32,353 bases of DNA from a virus: positions 1 through 32,353 of the IMG/VR virus record IMGVR_UViG_3300020733_000042. One strand, given 5' to 3'. Each line of letters opens with the position of its first letter. Positions within the stretch are counted from its first letter, which is position 1. Made by a program: the position numbers and the translations under genes. Of the stretch, positions 2,992 through 22,452 are shown in pieces. Below the pieces are notes generated by a model. That model was not told the DNA's origin, did no database searches, and saw only the letters and a list, made by a program, of their open reading frames with translations.

Positions 2992-4233
2992 TTAAATTCC
3001 TAGTCTGCCCCCTTGGCGTGAACCATCCTTAATTGCAATAAGGTTTGCGTTTACGTAGGGGATATTGTTTTCTCGGTGCCAGTCACTTGGAAAGTAAGTC
3101 TGGAGAACAGCCTTTTGAAAGTTCATTTTCAGTTCTGGTACATACTTGCGGTAGTTTTCGTCCGCAAAATACCAGAATGAATTTTCGTTGTAAAAAGAAT
3201 TGTGCGTAGGGTCTTGGTATGCGCCGCGACCATCGGTGCTTGGGGTGAGGCTTAGAATCATTCCGCCGTGAGCAAGAACTCTATACATTTCATTCCATAG
3301 TCGAACCTTGTCTGGAATGTGCTCCAGGAAGTCCACCGCACGGATAACGCCAACAGTGTTGTCGTCAAGGCTTCCAAGAATGTCAAACACGTCACCAACA
3401 AGGTCTGCTGGTTCGTGCATGTCTAGGGTTGAATATCCTGGCGTTGGGTTATGAGCAGCGCCCATGTCAATAGCCATAAGGTTATTGCGCTGACACCAAG
3501 CCAGTAGGAGTGGCTGAATATTTTTGTGATTCATGCGAACTGTTTCAGTTTGAATGAACGGGTTAATGTCCGACTGTGCCTGAGTGTTGTCTGGGTGAAC
3601 ACGTTGTAGGTAAAGGTTTTTCTTAATGTGAAAGAAATCACCTTGAAGGAACATTTTATACATAATGTCTTGGTCATCCAAGACTTTCATGGTTTCGTCG
3701 TATCCCGAAGTTGCTTTGTAAGCCGAGGTGCGGAAAGAGCGAATGTGATTTGGTGCGTACCAAATTAGTGAAACGTTGTGCGGGCTAGGTGCAAGTCCGT
3801 GACATACATTGTATCCATCTTCTTCGTGATATTCCCAACCGTAATCAGGAGAATATTTAGAAAAATTAGGAGTAGAGTCCGCATTAATGTAAGAAAAATC
3901 AGAATAAACAAAAACGACATCTGGGTTTTCATCAAATGCTTTGCGGACCTCTTCAAGGGCGGTCGGCATGAGGATATCGTCGTGGTCTAGTTCTACTAAA
4001 ATATCGCCAATGCAAAGTTCTACAGCGTACTTTTTAAGCGCTCCAACTTTGCCACCCAATTGTGGTTTGGCGTAAGAAATTTTTACACGGTCATCGTATT
4101 CTGGTCTAGACCATTCGGCCTTGCCGTTAAGAACTACAACCCATTCCCATGCCTCATAAGTCTGTGCCTTAAGGCTTTCATATGCTTGGTCAAGATATTT
4201 TGGGTCGTGACTTGGTGTAAATATTGAAATCAT
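2992..4233 (-). CDS. Bifunctional family 2 glycosyltransferase and SAM-dependent methyltransferase
   Basis: A two-domain enzyme embedded in the baseplate operon. Residues 1-215 are a GT-A fold family 2 glycosyltransferase: the start ISIFTPSHDPKYLDQAYESL, the strand WEWVVVLNG, and the metal/nucleotide-sugar acidic motif at 81-86 (ELDHDD). Residues 250-400 look like a class I methyltransferase: AIDMGAAHNP at 254-263 in the SAM-loop position, D271 ending strand 2, LEHIPD at 303-308, and HGGMILSLTP as the post-motif strand. The substrate is unknown: a virion protein, host surface sugar or DNA are all possible. It has its own promoter (4284-4312) and interrupts the spike-to-gp25 gene order, so it behaves like an inserted accessory gene. 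SD GAGGG lies about 11 nt before the ATG. Confidence 0.85.
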   Translation of the reverse strand: MISIFTPSHDPKYLDQAYESLKAQTYEAWEWVVVLNGKAEWSRPEYDDRVKISYAKPQLGGKVGALKKYAVELCIGDILVELDHDDILMPTALEEVRKAFDENPDVVFVYSDFSYINADSTPNFSKYSPDYGWEYHEEDGYNVCHGLAPSPHNVSLIWYAPNHIRSFRTSAYKATSGYDETMKVLDDQDIMYKMFLQGDFFHIKKNLYLQRVHPDNTQAQSDINPFIQTETVRMNHKNIQPLLLAWCQRNNLMAIDMGAAHNPTPGYSTLDMHEPADLVGDVFDILGSLDDNTVGVIRAVDFLEHIPDKVRLWNEMYRVLAHGGMILSLTPSTDGRGAYQDPTHNSFYNENSFWYFADENYRKYVPELKMNFQKAVLQTYFPSDWHRENNIPYVNANLIAIKDGSRQGGRLGI

Positions 4234-16619: not shown

Positions 16620-18158
16620 TTAGTCAACTTGGAACGATGGACTGTAAGACGTTGAGGTTGGGAGGATTCCGTTTCCAGCAGTCTTGTCCAGTGCAGCAGC
16701 AACGTTAGCCAAACGACCAATGTACTTAGGCGCACGAACAGCAAGCGTGGTGTCCGCAACGAATGCGAATGGCAGGCTGTCAGGTGATGCAGTAGTTGGG
16801 TAAACGCTAATAGGTTGCATTTCACGCACGAATGGACGAACGATGTAGTTCGGGTCACGTGACATGAGGTAAATGCTTTGCTCACCGTTTGAGGTAAGTG
16901 GCTTAAGGCCATTGTTGAAGTAAGAGTAAGACGCAGTAGGCGAAGCCTGTACGTTACTTCCGTTAGCAGCAACAAGAGTGGTTCCGTTGTCAACAATCTT
17001 AGTGGTAGCCCAAATGTTGCCTGTGCTGTCCAAGAATGATGCGTCAACAATTCCAAGAAGGGTTACTGTGGCGTTAGTGCCTGCAACTGTGTAGTTACGG
17101 TAAACCTTGTAGTGTGTTGGTTGTGAACCTTCTGGACCCGTTGGGGTTGAGAAAGTAAGAGCAACTGTTCCACTTGCGTCTGGAGTTGCAGTAGCAACAG
17201 AAGAAGCCTGGATTTCACCGAAACGAGCAATAACAGGAGCAACTTGGTAGTTAAGCGCAACTGAAGGAAGGCTTCCACCGGTTCCCTTAGTAGCAACTAC
17301 TGTGCCCATCTTGTTGGTACGTGGTGAAAGGAATGAAGTCTTAACAATTGGTACACCACGGTATGTAGGTACGATAAGACCGGCCTCAATTTCAACCTGG
17401 TCAACAAAACGCTGTTGGTTGACGAGCAACTGTGACAGACGGCTGTTGGCTGAAGGTGACATGAGGAACATCCACTCTGAGTTCTCAACTGGCTCTGCGA
17501 CGTTCGATTCAACGAGGTCAATGAGAAGGTCGAGGCTTCCGAGAGTAAGGCTGTTTCCGCCAGCGTCAATTGCGTTCTGGTCTACACCATCAACCCAAGG
17601 GTTGAATGTTGGAGCGCCCCATACAGAAGCACCACCGTAGTTGTCAATTGTTCCGCCGCCGATTCCCTGTGAAGGGCCGCCAGTAGATGCAGACGAGAAT
17701 GACGAAGCAATAACGTCAAGTCCGTCAAATTGTGGGTAAGCACCGTTCTGAGTAGGTGCACCAGCACCCCAAAGAATAGCGGTTTCCATGTCCCAGTAAA
17801 GACCGCGGGCAGCGCCCTCGATTTCACGGGCACGGAGGTCACCAATCAAGTCAGCCGTAACTGACTGTGAGTAACCGGTTACCGCACCAACGCTCTGGAG
17901 CAGACGAATCTGAAAGTTCTCCTGAGCGTAGTTAGATGTTGATACAGGTCGTGCACCGCCGTCAGTGACGAATCCGCCCTGAGGAAGCGTTGTACGCTTG
18001 TTGAAGTAGTAAACTGTTGAGCCCCACTTGACCGTAGGAAGCGAGCGTACTAGCGGCGCATAGCGGCGCTGGTATTCAAGCAATACTGGGTCAATCTGCT
18101 TCTGAACTAGTGCAGCAGCACCAGCAGCAGTTAAGGCCTCTTCCAAATCGTTAGCCAT
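16620..18158 (-). CDS. Major capsid protein with inserted Ig/FN3-like domain
   Basis: A 512-aa HK97-fold major capsid protein. N-arm: helix then PVLLEYQRRYAPLVRSLPTV. Typical features: RPVSTSNYAQENFQIRLLQS and VGAVTGYSQSVTADLIGDL (E-loop to spine), AREIEGAARGLYWDMETAIL (spine helix), then SEWMFLMSPSANSRLSQLL and GLIVPTYRGVPIVKTSFL (P-domain to A-domain). Residues about 315-405 interrupt the C-terminal part with an Ig/FN3-like module (ALTFSTPTGPEGSQPTHYKV, then YRNY, ending SPTASYSYFNN), after which the capsid fold resumes (EQSIYLMSRDPNYIVRPF). The insert probably projects from the capsid surface. It follows the protease-scaffold gene; SD AAGGAG. Confidence 0.9.
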   Translation of the reverse strand: MANDLEEALTAAGAAALVQKQIDPVLLEYQRRYAPLVRSLPTVKWGSTVYYFNKRTTLPQGGFVTDGGARPVSTSNYAQENFQIRLLQSVGAVTGYSQSVTADLIGDLRAREIEGAARGLYWDMETAILWGAGAPTQNGAYPQFDGLDVIASSFSSASTGGPSQGIGGGTIDNYGGASVWGAPTFNPWVDGVDQNAIDAGGNSLTLGSLDLLIDLVESNVAEPVENSEWMFLMSPSANSRLSQLLVNQQRFVDQVEIEAGLIVPTYRGVPIVKTSFLSPRTNKMGTVVATKGTGGSLPSVALNYQVAPVIARFGEIQASSVATATPDASGTVALTFSTPTGPEGSQPTHYKVYRNYTVAGTNATVTLLGIVDASFLDSTGNIWATTKIVDNGTTLVAANGSNVQASPTASYSYFNNGLKPLTSNGEQSIYLMSRDPNYIVRPFVREMQPISVYPTTASPDSLPFAFVADTTLAVRAPKYIGRLANVAAALDKTAGNGILPTSTSYSPSFQVD

Positions 18159-18207: not shown

Positions 18208-19047
18208 TTAGAAGCCGCGGTCGGCTTGAGCAAACTTTGCTGCGAAAAATGGAGAAGCACCCCATGTTTCGCTTTGAACCTTACGGAAATTGGTTGAAGA
18301 CATCTCAGCCAATTGACGTGGGTCCAATTCCTCCGACTCTGACAAGTCAGAGGCGTCGTTTCCTACGTAAGACGCTACAAGTCCCTTACGGAAAGTGGTT
18401 TGACCACTTCTGTAAGATTCAGTTGCGCTTTTCTTGGCTTCAGCAACGGCGGCAGTTGCAGCCGCAGCAGCGGCCTCTGCAACCATGGCTTGAACCTGCT
18501 CCATAGTAAATGTGTTTTCGTTCACGGTATTCTCCTGTGATTCGATAGATTCTTCTGCAGTTACTTCTTCGGCTGCTTCTTCAGCGGCAGGTGCTTCATC
18601 AGCAACTACTTCCTCAGGTGCAACTTCTGACTCAACTGCTTCAGGTGTTGATTCGACTGGCTTAATTGCAGCAGCAATAACTGCGGCAAGAGCCTGAAGG
18701 TCTGCGTCACTCAGCGTACGAGTAGCAGCGGTTTCAAGCGTTGCCTCTTCAGCCGGAGTTTCTACAGCAGTGACTTCATCTGCCACTTCCGTGGTGTTTT
18801 CGTCTGACACTTCTGTCTCCATTTCTTGAGTTGGGGCATTGTCGCTTGACTCTGCCTGTGGTACGGGGTCCCCACAAGTGGGGCAATACATGGCATCCTG
18901 CGGAGCAGTTGCTCCACAGTTACCACAGCCGAGCGCTTTTGCCGTCATTGAAGTTGGCAGTTGCGCTCCACACATGTGACAATGAATTGCGTCTTCGTAG
19001 CACTCAGTACCACATTCTGCGCATTCCATGTTGTTGTCGTTTGTCAT
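18208..19047 (-). CDS. Internal start: zinc-ribbon scaffold made separately within the protease gene
   Basis: In-frame ATG (Met375 of the long protein) is preceded by GAGGAAG 5 nt away (19053-19059), a good SD at the exact boundary before the first zinc ribbon. Translation here would give a 279-aa protein of two zinc ribbons plus the acidic scaffold without the protease, the logic of lambda Nu3 inside gene C. This is predicted from SD placement and domain boundary only. Confidence 0.5.
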   Translation of the reverse strand: MTNDNNMECAECGTECYEDAIHCHMCGAQLPTSMTAKALGCGNCGATAPQDAMYCPTCGDPVPQAESSDNAPTQEMETEVSDENTTEVADEVTAVETPAEEATLETAATRTLSDADLQALAAVIAAAIKPVESTPEAVESEVAPEEVVADEAPAAEEAAEEVTAEESIESQENTVNENTFTMEQVQAMVAEAAAAAATAAVAEAKKSATESYRSGQTTFRKGLVASYVGNDASDLSESEELDPRQLAEMSSTNFRKVQSETWGASPFFAAKFAQADRGF

Positions 19048-20169
19048 AATTTCTTCCTCTGGTCCCATGCCGCCAGCGTCACCGGTAGCGTCAACAGCGG
19101 ACCAATCTGGCTTAGAAAGGTAAATGTCACCATCGTCATCTGGGTCAATTGCGTGCATAGCAGCAATGGCACCAAAAGCAATACGATTAGCAACAAGCCT
19201 TAGTTTGTGAGGGTCATTTGTTTGACCACTAATGTTAATGGTATCGTAATCATTAACAAGAGAAATTGAAGCATATGCTTCTAGAATTTCTTGAAAATCG
19301 TCAGCAAGTTGTGCTTGTTCACTAACAATATTTACGCCATATTTTTTTGCTGCAGATTTAATGCGCGATTTGATTCGTGCAAGTTGTGCAGCAGTGTAAA
19401 AAGCGGCATTTTTAGGTTGGTTAATGTATGACCAGGCAGAGCGAACGTGTCCGGCTCCGTTAATTGGGTAACGCTTAACCTTATCTTTTTGATAACCAGG
19501 GTCAGCATAAGCAACATCGCCGTAAGGCTTAGATGTGTCTTTTTCAAAAATCTTGTTTACAGCGTCTTCTACTGCTTCTTCAACAGCATCACGAATAACA
19601 TCTGCCGCTTCAGAAGCAACTAGTTCTTCACTGCGAGAAACAATTTCAACTGTTTCAATTGATTCAAAAATTGAAAGTCGGTTGTGTGATTCAGAGAGCG
19701 CAGCGTATTGAATTTCTGCACCGTCAACGCCAGGACTGTTGGTGAAATCAATGCCATGAATGGCAAGGTCATCTGCTGTTGTTGCCTCATTACCATCTGT
19801 GTGGGTAATTGAGTAAGGTTCTCCGCGCCATTCTCCACGAATAGAAACGCCTTTAATAAACTTTCCAGCAGCAAGGTTTGCAACATCACGGCCGTGAGCG
19901 GTGTTTGCAATTTCTGCTTCAAATTGAGCAGAGCCGTCAGGAAGAAGTTTTACGTCTGTAATGCGACCAACTGTTGAAGTTGCATCGTCTTTAAAAGCCG
20001 CAGCGTGGCTAGTAGCCATGTTTAGAGGCATTCCTTCACCTGAGTCAAGGGCACTCTTCATTCGCTCTACAGCCTTAGCAATGTTTGCACGTGTATAAAG
20101 ACGGCGATTCTTGGAAAGACCTGGCTTTAGAAATACGCCACGAATAGTGGCTGCCTTAGTTGAGGCCAT
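18208..20169 (-). CDS. Fused capsid maturation protease, DUF6582-like domain, double zinc ribbon and scaffold
   Basis: A 653-aa multi-domain head-assembly protein. Residues 1-160 form a prohead protease: MATSH with candidate catalytic His55, the strand pair VGRITDVKLLPDGSAQFEAE, and GVSIRGEW with candidate Ser109. Residues 212-282 (YADPGYQKDKVKRYPINGAG, then HVRSAWSYINQPKNAAFYTA) match a DUF6582-like domain. Residues 383-432 hold two CxxC/CxxC zinc ribbons (C383, C386, C397, C400; C415, C418, C429, C432). Residues 440-600 are very acidic Ala/Glu-rich, like a scaffold, and 600-653 are a mixed tail. It lies between the basic protein and the capsid gene, as lambda C/Nu3-type genes do. Its promoter is at 20234-20263 and its SD is AGGAG. 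Confidence 0.85.
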   Translation of the reverse strand: MASTKAATIRGVFLKPGLSKNRRLYTRANIAKAVERMKSALDSGEGMPLNMATSHAAAFKDDATSTVGRITDVKLLPDGSAQFEAEIANTAHGRDVANLAAGKFIKGVSIRGEWRGEPYSITHTDGNEATTADDLAIHGIDFTNSPGVDGAEIQYAALSESHNRLSIFESIETVEIVSRSEELVASEAADVIRDAVEEAVEDAVNKIFEKDTSKPYGDVAYADPGYQKDKVKRYPINGAGHVRSAWSYINQPKNAAFYTAAQLARIKSRIKSAAKKYGVNIVSEQAQLADDFQEILEAYASISLVNDYDTINISGQTNDPHKLRLVANRIAFGAIAAMHAIDPDDDGDIYLSKPDWSAVDATGDAGGMGPEEEIMTNDNNMECAECGTECYEDAIHCHMCGAQLPTSMTAKALGCGNCGATAPQDAMYCPTCGDPVPQAESSDNAPTQEMETEVSDENTTEVADEVTAVETPAEEATLETAATRTLSDADLQALAAVIAAAIKPVESTPEAVESEVAPEEVVADEAPAAEEAAEEVTAEESIESQENTVNENTFTMEQVQAMVAEAAAAAATAAVAEAKKSATESYRSGQTTFRKGLVASYVGNDASDLSESEELDPRQLAEMSSTNFRKVQSETWGASPFFAAKFAQADRGF

Positions 20170-20277: not shown

Positions 20278-20763
20278 TTATCTTGCGGTGTAAGTATGGC
20301 CGTGTCTGCGCCACTTTTTTACACCTTTAAATCGGTGAGCGCGTTTTGTTAAACGCTTTTTAAAACCAGAAGAATGAGTTGCTTTTCCCCATGCAGTTCT
20401 TTTATAAAAACGACCTGGAGAAATTTCTCCAATGAATTTTTTGTTTTTACCAGTAATAGTTGGTTTCTTAAGATGAACCTTTTTATGGTAAGACATGTAG
20501 CGAACACCAACGGTGCGTTGCTTTTGAAGTTGTATTTCACGCATGTTGTACATTTTTACAACGGCTGCGGTAGCGCGGCTTTTTTGACTTGATTTTACAA
20601 AACCCTTGTAAGGCGTAGAACCCGTGTGACGAACTTCACCTTTTTTAGCACGAGCCAATGCAAGGTTTGCACGTTCTGCTGCTAATTGTGCTGCGCTTTG
20701 GGAACCTGCTGGATATTTTTTGTGCAGTGCATAAGCACCAGCACGACCCATATAGTTTCCCAT
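20278..20763 (-). CDS. Small, highly basic head-module protein, unknown
   Basis: A 161-aa protein rich in Lys, Arg and His, with almost no acidic residues in the second half (KKPTITGKNKKFIGEISPG, then KKRLTKRAHRFKGVKKWRRH). I recognise no domain. The N-terminus (AAQLAAERANLALARAKKGE) is a short amphipathic helix. The charge suggests nucleic-acid binding, perhaps an internal head protein packaged with DNA or an ejected protein, but ribosomal-like mimicry or minor capsid roles are equally open. Encoded between the 47-aa gene and the protease, i.e. within the head module. Start ATG is two bases before the stop of the 47-aa gene. Confidence 0.72.
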   Translation of the reverse strand: MGNYMGRAGAYALHKKYPAGSQSAAQLAAERANLALARAKKGEVRHTGSTPYKGFVKSSQKSRATAAVVKMYNMREIQLQKQRTVGVRYMSYHKKVHLKKPTITGKNKKFIGEISPGRFYKRTAWGKATHSSGFKKRLTKRAHRFKGVKKWRRHGHTYTAR

Positions 20764-20764
20764 T

Positions 20765-20908
20765 TTAGCCTACTTCTTTGCTAACCAATGCTGCTGCTTT
20801 CGCAGCGGTAAGTCCAAGAAAAGGGATAACTGGTTCACCCTCGTTGTAGAATTCTTTACCATTAATGTAAATCGGTTCTACTTTTTCGTAATCGGGGTCT
20901 TCAGCCAT
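20765..20908 (-). CDS. 47-aa protein between portal and basic protein, unknown
   Basis: A short gene starting at an ATG that shares a base with the portal stop (TAATG) and ending 2 nt before the next ATG. Translation: MAEDPDYEKVEPIYINGKEF, then a Val/Pro stretch and TAAKAAALVSKEVG. The INGKEFYNEGEPVIPFLG segment looks like a small beta motif followed by a helix. Tight packing on both sides indicates it is real. Function unknown; a small head accessory is plausible. Confidence 0.7.
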   Translation of the reverse strand: MAEDPDYEKVEPIYINGKEFYNEGEPVIPFLGLTAAKAAALVSKEVG

Positions 20909-22452
20909 TAGTTTTCACTCTCTAGATTTTCTGATACAGATTCAGTTCCACCTGGAGCACTTTGTGCTTTCATTGGAATTGGTACTTGACCAGGTTTCTT
21001 AGGTCCACTGGACTTTTTTGTTGCTTTGTCTTTTGGAGACCTAGTTGTAGTGCCGCTTACCTTTGAACCAGGATTAGTGGTCGGTGTAACTGGGGCATTC
21101 ATTGTTTGACCTTGCATCTGAACAACCTGAAGGTTGGCCTTAGATAGAGCGTTAAGGTCTGACCATAGAACCATGTTCTGACGGTCAACAAGAATTGGGT
21201 CATCTCCACCTTCAATTGGTGGTTCGCCAATGTCTGCGCGTGCGCGGTTAATTGTCCATGAACCGTTACGAATACGTTGGTCACGAATCAATTCAATAAC
21301 TTCGTCATCTCGCCAGTCAACAACACCAAACTTAAGAGTCCATTCGGTAATTCCGTATGCTTGGTAAAGCAATGCAAATGAAAACTTTTCAAGAACAAGT
21401 TCTTGAATTGGTCCAACCGTGTTAACACGGAAAGTTTTGTCTTGCTGGGTGCCGGTTCCTCCCCCAAGGTTACCGGCTTCGATGACACCAACCTTTGAAG
21501 GTGGTACACCATACCCAGACAAGATTTCATCACGGCGCTGTTGAAGGGTGTTGAGCCAGTTATTAATCTGGTTAGTTCCCATTTCATTAACAATCGCTCC
21601 ACCCTTTGTTTCAAAAAGGTTACCGATGTTACGTGCACCAAGGTTTCGAGTTGCGTACTGTTGTTGAAGGCGCTTCATTTCCGATTCAGGAAGTGCAAGT
21701 GGCCAGTCAACGTGAGCACGCAGTGGGTCTCCGCGCTTCATCGTTTCTTTGATGAGTGCTGCGGTAAACAACCAAGAAGTAATAGGCAGAATGTTTTTCT
21801 GCGTTGGAGAAACACCATAAAGAGCATCTCCAGGTGAATCAAATTTAACGTGAATAATTTCGTTTGGTTTAAAACGTGCTTCACGATTTGTAGCGGTTTT
21901 TTGGTAATAGCCTTTAATTACACCGTGCTCGTCAGAGATTACAGTCATTGTTGTAGGGTCAAGTGGGTAAAGAGCCACTGGCTCTCCCATTACCCAAACA
22001 ACTTCAGTGAATGAGTCACCAAAAATAAGAAGGTCTGTAATAACAGCACGCATCAATTGACGAATGTCTTCTTTTGGATTTACATATTTAAGAAGGTCTT
22101 GTATTTTTTTAACTTCTTCAGGTGCTTCTGGAATGTCTGCACTTCCGTAAGCACTTGTTTCGTAATTAACTTCTAAGCCACCGGCAGTTGCAGTTCGTGC
22201 AATTGTGTCAATAGAAGCAGATGACCATGGACATGCAAGATACGCTTGAAGCAATTGTTGCATAAACGTTGAGCGGTCAAGAGTACCGGCAGTAACGTTT
22301 TCACCAGGATTAATTTCGTTTGTACCACCAATAGGTACGCCAGTAGCATAACCAGAACGCTTAGGACTGCTCTTTGGTCGGGCTTCTTCGATGTTAGCGT
22401 CATAGTTGGCGCCAACTTCCTGAAGTCCCTTTAAAAAAGAGTTAATAGCCAT
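20908..22452 (-). CDS. Portal protein
   Basis: A 514-aa phage portal directly after the terminase gene. Diagnostic segments: the N-terminal helix region CPWSSASIDTIARTATAGGL, the family's long helix plus beta element LMRAVITDLLIFGDSFTEVV, ALYPLDPTTMTVISDEHGVI with EIIHVKFDSPGDALYGVSPT (portal 'i.h.......yG.sp'), ATRNLGARNIGNLFE, and IEAGNLGGGTGTQQDKTFRV with the basic/Gln loop. It forms the dodecameric vertex for DNA packaging and neck attachment. The C-terminal 80 residues are Pro/Lys/Ser-rich and likely disordered. Length is typical. Confidence 0.92.
   Translation of the reverse strand: MAINSFLKGLQEVGANYDANIEEARPKSSPKRSGYATGVPIGGTNEINPGENVTAGTLDRSTFMQQLLQAYLACPWSSASIDTIARTATAGGLEVNYETSAYGSADIPEAPEEVKKIQDLLKYVNPKEDIRQLMRAVITDLLIFGDSFTEVVWVMGEPVALYPLDPTTMTVISDEHGVIKGYYQKTATNREARFKPNEIIHVKFDSPGDALYGVSPTQKNILPITSWLFTAALIKETMKRGDPLRAHVDWPLALPESEMKRLQQQYATRNLGARNIGNLFETKGGAIVNEMGTNQINNWLNTLQQRRDEILSGYGVPPSKVGVIEAGNLGGGTGTQQDKTFRVNTVGPIQELVLEKFSFALLYQAYGITEWTLKFGVVDWRDDEVIELIRDQRIRNGSWTINRARADIGEPPIEGGDDPILVDRQNMVLWSDLNALSKANLQVVQMQGQTMNAPVTPTTNPGSKVSGTTTRSPKDKATKKSSGPKKPGQVPIPMKAQSAPGGTESVSENLESEN

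Follow-up and report, generated by a model that had tools for sequence, protein, structure and literature searches.

A capsid protease gene of uncultivated phages with exchangeable zinc ribbons and conserved internal starts that may encode nested scaffold proteins

Results

We analyzed a stretch of 32,353 nucleotides (IMG/VR virus record IMGVR_UViG_3300020733_000042, positions 1 to 32,353; the window refers to this whole stretch), which belongs to an uncultivated, tailed phage, probably of an actinobacterial host. A single long ORF on the minus strand, running from 20169 to 18208, has the portal gene upstream and the major capsid gene directly downstream. The genes and domains at the locus are as follows.

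20908 to 22452, minus strand: portal protein, upstream of the protease-scaffold ORF
18208 to 20169, minus strand: whole ORF of 653 amino acids (protease, DUF6582, zinc ribbons, scaffold)
19690 to 20169, minus strand: T4 gp21-like prohead protease domain, residues 1–160
19657 to 19674, minus strand: putative self-cleavage site I-F-E169/S170, within the disordered linker that follows the protease
19321 to 19542, minus strand: DUF6582, residues 210–283 (Pfam E 1.5e-19, at or above cut-off)
19123 to 19281, minus strand: small, conserved alpha/beta domain ending DPDDDGDI, residues 297–349
18871 to 19023, minus strand: double zinc ribbon, residues 383–433, with eight cysteines in two CxxC-x10-CxxC units
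16620 to 18158, minus strand: major capsid protein, SU10-like, directly downstream of the protease-scaffold ORF

The preliminary description had read this ORF as one gene for a protease, DUF6582, a double zinc ribbon, and an acidic scaffold, and the Pfam matches, the fold of the protease, and the C-terminal helices all agree with that reading. The protease and the scaffold-like region share one continuous frame, and DUF6582 is present in 33/33 aligned relatives; a literature search on DUF6582 found none. The acidic C-terminal third of the protein is largely disordered apart from a long helix at residues 556–587 and further helices at 617–650 in an AlphaFold model that is of low confidence in the scaffold, and its position, acidity, and helices together point to a scaffold role. 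Among the window ORFs between the portal and capsid genes, searched with Pfam and PHROG, no other scaffold candidate was found save one small basic ORF: it lies between the portal and protease genes (20278 to 20763, minus strand), encodes a very basic protein of 161 amino acids, and matched neither database. Elsewhere in the window, a 413-amino acid ORF in the tail gene region (2992 to 4233, minus strand) appears, as judged from its sequence, to have a glycosyltransferase-like part followed by a methyltransferase-like part.

Searches of Pfam and PHROG with the N-terminal domain of the window protein gave no match. Relatives matched PHROG 207, head maturation protease (best 3.2e-8, in L045), and one of them, L126, matched Peptidase_S77 at 5.8e-6 with 26.4 bits, just below the cut-off of 27. 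In the AlphaFold model, which was built with 33 sequences, residues 1–160 were modelled at a pLDDT of 75–91. Among solved structures, this domain was best matched by 5jbl, the prohead protease gp21 of T4 (Foldseek, E 5.9e-5, prob 1.00), and next by the human cytomegalovirus protease (E 0.014). Further, 117 viral models matched it, many of which carry names such as head maturation or prohead protease. Two of the BFVD models with long matches, A0A6J5RFH1 and A0A6J5N5R9 from uncultured phages, are named Dps/ferritin, which suggests that other domains have been fused to prohead proteases as well. His-55, Ser-109, and Asp-141 are invariant in the 33 aligned relatives and are the likely catalytic residues. 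Right after the protease domain, all 33 sequences carry an [I/V]-x-E / [S/A] motif, the conservation of which is consistent with putative proteolysis after Glu. T4 gp21 cuts after L/I-X-E (PMC9026906), and giant-phage homologues cut after S/A/G-X-E and are reported to cleave themselves at the C terminus (PMC5694885). In L008, L019, L045, L122, and others, an extra N-terminal domain (PHROG 2859), absent from the window, is fused in frame before the protease; in these relatives, the protease's own ATG retains a CAGGAG Shine-Dalgarno sequence (SD) inside the continuous ORF.

The window protein alone found 117 places in IMG/VR, and the alignment as query found 500 places in one IMG/VR scan; the alignment also found six loci in Streptomyces, Kitasatospora, Peterkaempfera, and Streptosporangiaceae genomes. 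When annotated phage records were searched by tblastn with the window protein and two distant relatives, no isolate phage was matched. The scaffold was not seen as a separate gene in any relative: all 25 loci at which the scaffold alone had been matched proved to be already known fusion records, except two that are cut by contig ends.

The zinc ribbons are strictly conserved in their ligands and highly variable in number. The window protein matched DZR (E 3.9e-7) and Zn_Ribbon_1 (1.6e-5), at or above the Pfam cut-offs, and zinc-ribbon models were matched by 26 of the 33 aligned sequences. Across 32 non-redundant ribbon-bearing lineages, all four cysteines are kept in 64/64 ribbon units, with the spacing CxxC-x(9–11)-CxxC. 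Copies per protein range from 0 to 4 among relatives (those without ribbons include L070, L077, and L080), and on a tree of the protease and DUF6582, the number changed at least 14 times, a count hardly altered by two tree labels, L074 and L075, which were scored as having one ribbon for a lone CxxC and truly have none. The ribbons are thus a real module, which always keeps its ligands but is readily gained, lost, and duplicated. The ribbons were modelled with low confidence, at a pLDDT of about 70, and gave weak, single-knuckle matches in the PDB, none with an E below 0.001 (Foldseek). Against PDB sequences, the ribbon profile found weak matches to various zinc proteins, none better than E 0.04, and the window protein and its alignment profile (A1) found no match.

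Other modules occur in this part of the protein. In L071, L072, L082, and L083, the ribbon slot is occupied by a different Cys-rich insert (CPCGCGCAIP...CPCxCESCMHC), and in L019, L059, and L126, a DUF5872-like domain lies between the ribbons and the scaffold, exactly between QAE and S, with SAE/S repeated at its other end. A module of the form HDxGHDDWHxxxGDxPCK...C, for which Pfam gave no match, is inserted at varying places in the linkers of L132, L136, L144, and L150. Just before the ribbon slot, a D-D/N-N-N-M-E motif (19027 to 19038 in the window, residues 378–381 and Glu-382) is nearly invariant and is kept even in the ribbonless L074 and L077, with no SD ahead of it. Within the gene, synonymous divergence is lowest (observed/expected 0.3–0.5) at the two borders of the array, residues 371–382 (19024 to 19059) and 436–450 (18820 to 18864), unlike in the ribbons themselves, where it is normal. 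These borders could contain translation signals or could be the edges of recombining ribbon cassettes; consensus RNA folds at the ribbon borders or at the second start described below were weak.

Downstream of the ribbons lie two in-frame GTG codons, each preceded by an SD. They are listed here with the ATG that had been put forward earlier as an internal start and with the products predicted from the conserved starts.

19045 to 19047, minus strand: ATG, Met-375, not conserved as a start
18817 to 18820, minus strand: SD GGAG, 6 nt before GTG 454 (AAGGAG or AGGAGG in many relatives)
18808 to 18810, minus strand: internal start GTG, residue 454 (from codon conservation in 42 close relatives)
18532 to 18536, minus strand: SD AGGAG, 6 nt before GTG 549
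18523 to 18525, minus strand: second internal start GTG, residue 549 (from codon conservation in 42 close relatives)
18208 to 18810, minus strand: predicted ribbon-free scaffold product of 200 amino acids (from start conservation)
18208 to 18525, minus strand: predicted short scaffold product of 105 amino acids, with helix 556–587 and the C-terminal helices

Of the 42 close relatives, 31 have GTG and 11 have ATG at residue 454, which toggles between Val and Met and never has another codon, and 42/42 have GTG at residue 549; these counts are drawn from related sequences and so are not independent trials. Elsewhere in the same 42 sequences, GTG accounts for just 51 of 1602 Val codons (3.2%). Both SDs outlive changes in the amino acids that they encode: before residue 454, GAG follows AAG, CAG, or ATG, and one group with ATG has GAG-GAG-GAA; before residue 549, GAG follows CAG or AAG through Gln/Lys swaps. 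The stretches upstream of 454 and around 549 show little synonymous divergence. Of 42 non-redundant tails, 39 carry an SD of 5 or more bases together with an in-frame start, compared with a mean of 20.7 and a maximum of 28 in 300 synonymous shuffles; L065, L071, and L081 had no 5-base SD by the criterion used. The start after the ribbons beat its own shuffles (p < 0.05) in 13/32 lineages, with a mean SD energy of -9.2, and is retained at 30–40% identity, with or without ribbons, including in prophages of Streptomyces, Kitasatospora, and Streptosporangiaceae. In most relatives, ribbonless Streptomyces prophages among them, a strong SD precedes the 454-type start, and AAGGAG...ATG follows the ribbon slot in, for example, L070, L074, L082–L085, L147, L149, and L151. 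In the window, the SD at 454 is just GGAG, and both internal start codons are GTG. In a single-sequence test, SD strength by itself gave p 0.18 (454) and 0.07 (549), unremarkable values because the peptide is rich in Glu and Lys; the argument for internal starts is carried by the start-codon columns and by the tests across lineages. Overall, sequence comparison indicates selection on both internal starts, alongside the domain layout, the conservation of the ribbons, and the turnover in their copy number.

Discussion

We consider the ORF likely to be a nested gene for capsid protease and scaffold, from which a long form and shorter scaffolds beginning at residues 454 and 549 would be made, with ribbons in the long form only. 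From the patterns described above, we infer that the internal starts are actually used, and the stoichiometry, the self-cleavage, and the role of the ribbons set out here have the same footing. Full-length translation would give the protein with protease, DUF6582, zinc ribbon, and scaffold, and initiation at GTG 18810 and again at GTG 18525 would give shorter scaffolds with the same C terminus but without protease and ribbons. Through the common C-terminal part, the rarer long form could co-assemble with abundant free scaffold and so carry the protease into the procapsid, where the protease would probably release itself after I-F-E169 and then degrade the scaffold. The phage could thus probably produce additional scaffold that lacks both the protease and the zinc part. 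Because both conserved starts come after the ribbons, free scaffold would be ribbonless, and zinc would be carried by the protease form only, the ribbons being a zinc-stabilized, exchangeable module of that form. Our best guess, offered tentatively, is a role in holding or spacing the protease form within the procapsid; it is also possible that the ribbons of the long form bind the capsid or portal.

A separately started scaffold had been part of the preliminary description, and in-frame signals for one are indeed conserved, but at residues 454 and 549, not at 375. In that description, initiation was placed at ATG 19047, at the start of the ribbons, which would give a zinc-ribbon scaffold of 279 amino acids whose ribbons dimerize the scaffold or bind the portal or capsid. 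The signals named do exist in the window: the first ribbon Cys lies 8 codons downstream of the ATG, and a 4-base SD, AGAGGAAGAAATT, precedes the ATG at 8 nt. Most close relatives have a Met within one codon of this position, and the low synonymous divergence at residues 371–382 may reflect weak initiation at Met-375 in some members. As a start, however, the site is poorly kept. Column 375 is ATG in 30/41 close relatives, the SD-like GAGG is gone in L031 and L045, the SD beat synonymous shuffles (p < 0.05) in 0/32 lineages (mean SD energy -4.6), and many distant relatives are without an equivalent. With the conserved starts positioned after the ribbons, a separate zinc-ribbon scaffold made from this ATG is very improbable, and the ribbonless state of the separately made scaffold argues against ribbons that hold free-scaffold dimers. 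Nearby Met-381, within DNNME, was rejected as a start for want of an SD, and the nearly invariant DNNME is therefore more likely a protein motif.

It could also be argued that the internal starts are relics of separate genes fused in frame and that only the long polyprotein now matters, with the scaffold freed from it by the protease. The CAGGAG kept at the protease start behind the extra N-terminal domain fits such a fusion of adjacent genes, and the lack of a separate scaffold gene at any of the 25 scaffold-alone loci is in keeping with it. Relics would be expected to decay, yet the codons alternate between GTG and ATG only, and the SDs persist to 30–40% identity, so we regard this explanation as improbable. 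A further proposal concerns the role of the ribbons and is compatible with nested starts: the region between protease and scaffold may be a slot for exchangeable small domains (ribbons, DUF6582, DUF5872, and others) that are cut out at x-E/S sites in the procapsid and then either remain in the head or pass into the host along with the DNA, in the manner of T4 internal proteins. Consistent with this proposal, the tree has 3 changes in a DUF5872 insert besides the repeated changes in ribbon number, DUF5872 inserts between QAE and S with the E/S border repeated, Glu-382 and Glu-440, which border the ribbons, hardly vary, and among the viral models are prohead proteases joined to proteins named Dps/ferritin. 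Against it, E/S pairs arise easily because the linkers are rich in Glu, Ala, and Ser, and the P3 residues at Glu-382 and Glu-440 differ from the T4 motif. Cargo release seems to us unlikely; were it true, phages would gain a modular means of loading capsids through a slot that evolves rapidly.

On the nested-gene explanation, a large group of uncultivated phages, together with actinobacterial prophages, appears to pair a T4-type protease with a nested design like that of lambda and herpesviruses, and a zinc-binding module that changes quickly appears to be confined to the long form. As ordinary gene calling would miss such hidden starts, the scaffold proteins of the group are likely unannotated. 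The changes in ribbon copy number and the relatives in Streptomyces prophages offer an experimental handle on extra domains in a capsid protease.

The nested layout has several precedents. In lambda and P2, a single gene serves for both protease and scaffold, and like lambda C/Nu3 (and P2 O), the gene described here has the protease N-terminal and the scaffold C-terminal, nested in the same frame (PMC8508860). Unlike lambda C/Nu3, it has a T4 gp21-like fold rather than a protease of the lambda family, DUF6582 and zinc ribbons intervene, and there are two conserved internal starts. The lambda protease family is ClpP/S49-like. In herpesviruses, UL26 and UL26.5 are 3'-coterminal, with protease and scaffold nested in frame and self-cleavage (PMC2949831). 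UL26 has a related protease fold, the human cytomegalovirus enzyme being our second-best match, but UL26/UL26.5 depends on an internal promoter and separate transcripts, whereas candidate internal ribosome-binding sites are found here. T4 gp21 is the best fold match (Peptidase S77), its L/I-X-E cleavage motif is fitted by the invariant [I/V]-x-E, and a second start at its Met-45 yields a required short form (PMC9026906). In T4, unlike here, the scaffold gp22 is a separate gene, and gp21 is without ribbons or DUF6582. The ribbons resemble Pfam DZR and Zn_Ribbon_1 in their tandem four-Cys units and differ from other members in lying inside a capsid protease-scaffold in 0–4 copies. A full-text literature search for a fusion of zinc ribbon, prohead protease, and scaffold found no description of one. 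To our knowledge, zinc ribbons have no counterpart in herpesvirus UL26/UL26.5 or in the protease/scaffold systems of lambda, P2, or T4. In conclusion, the nested layout is known from lambda and the herpesviruses, and the zinc ribbons and the hidden starts that follow them are a new variation on it.
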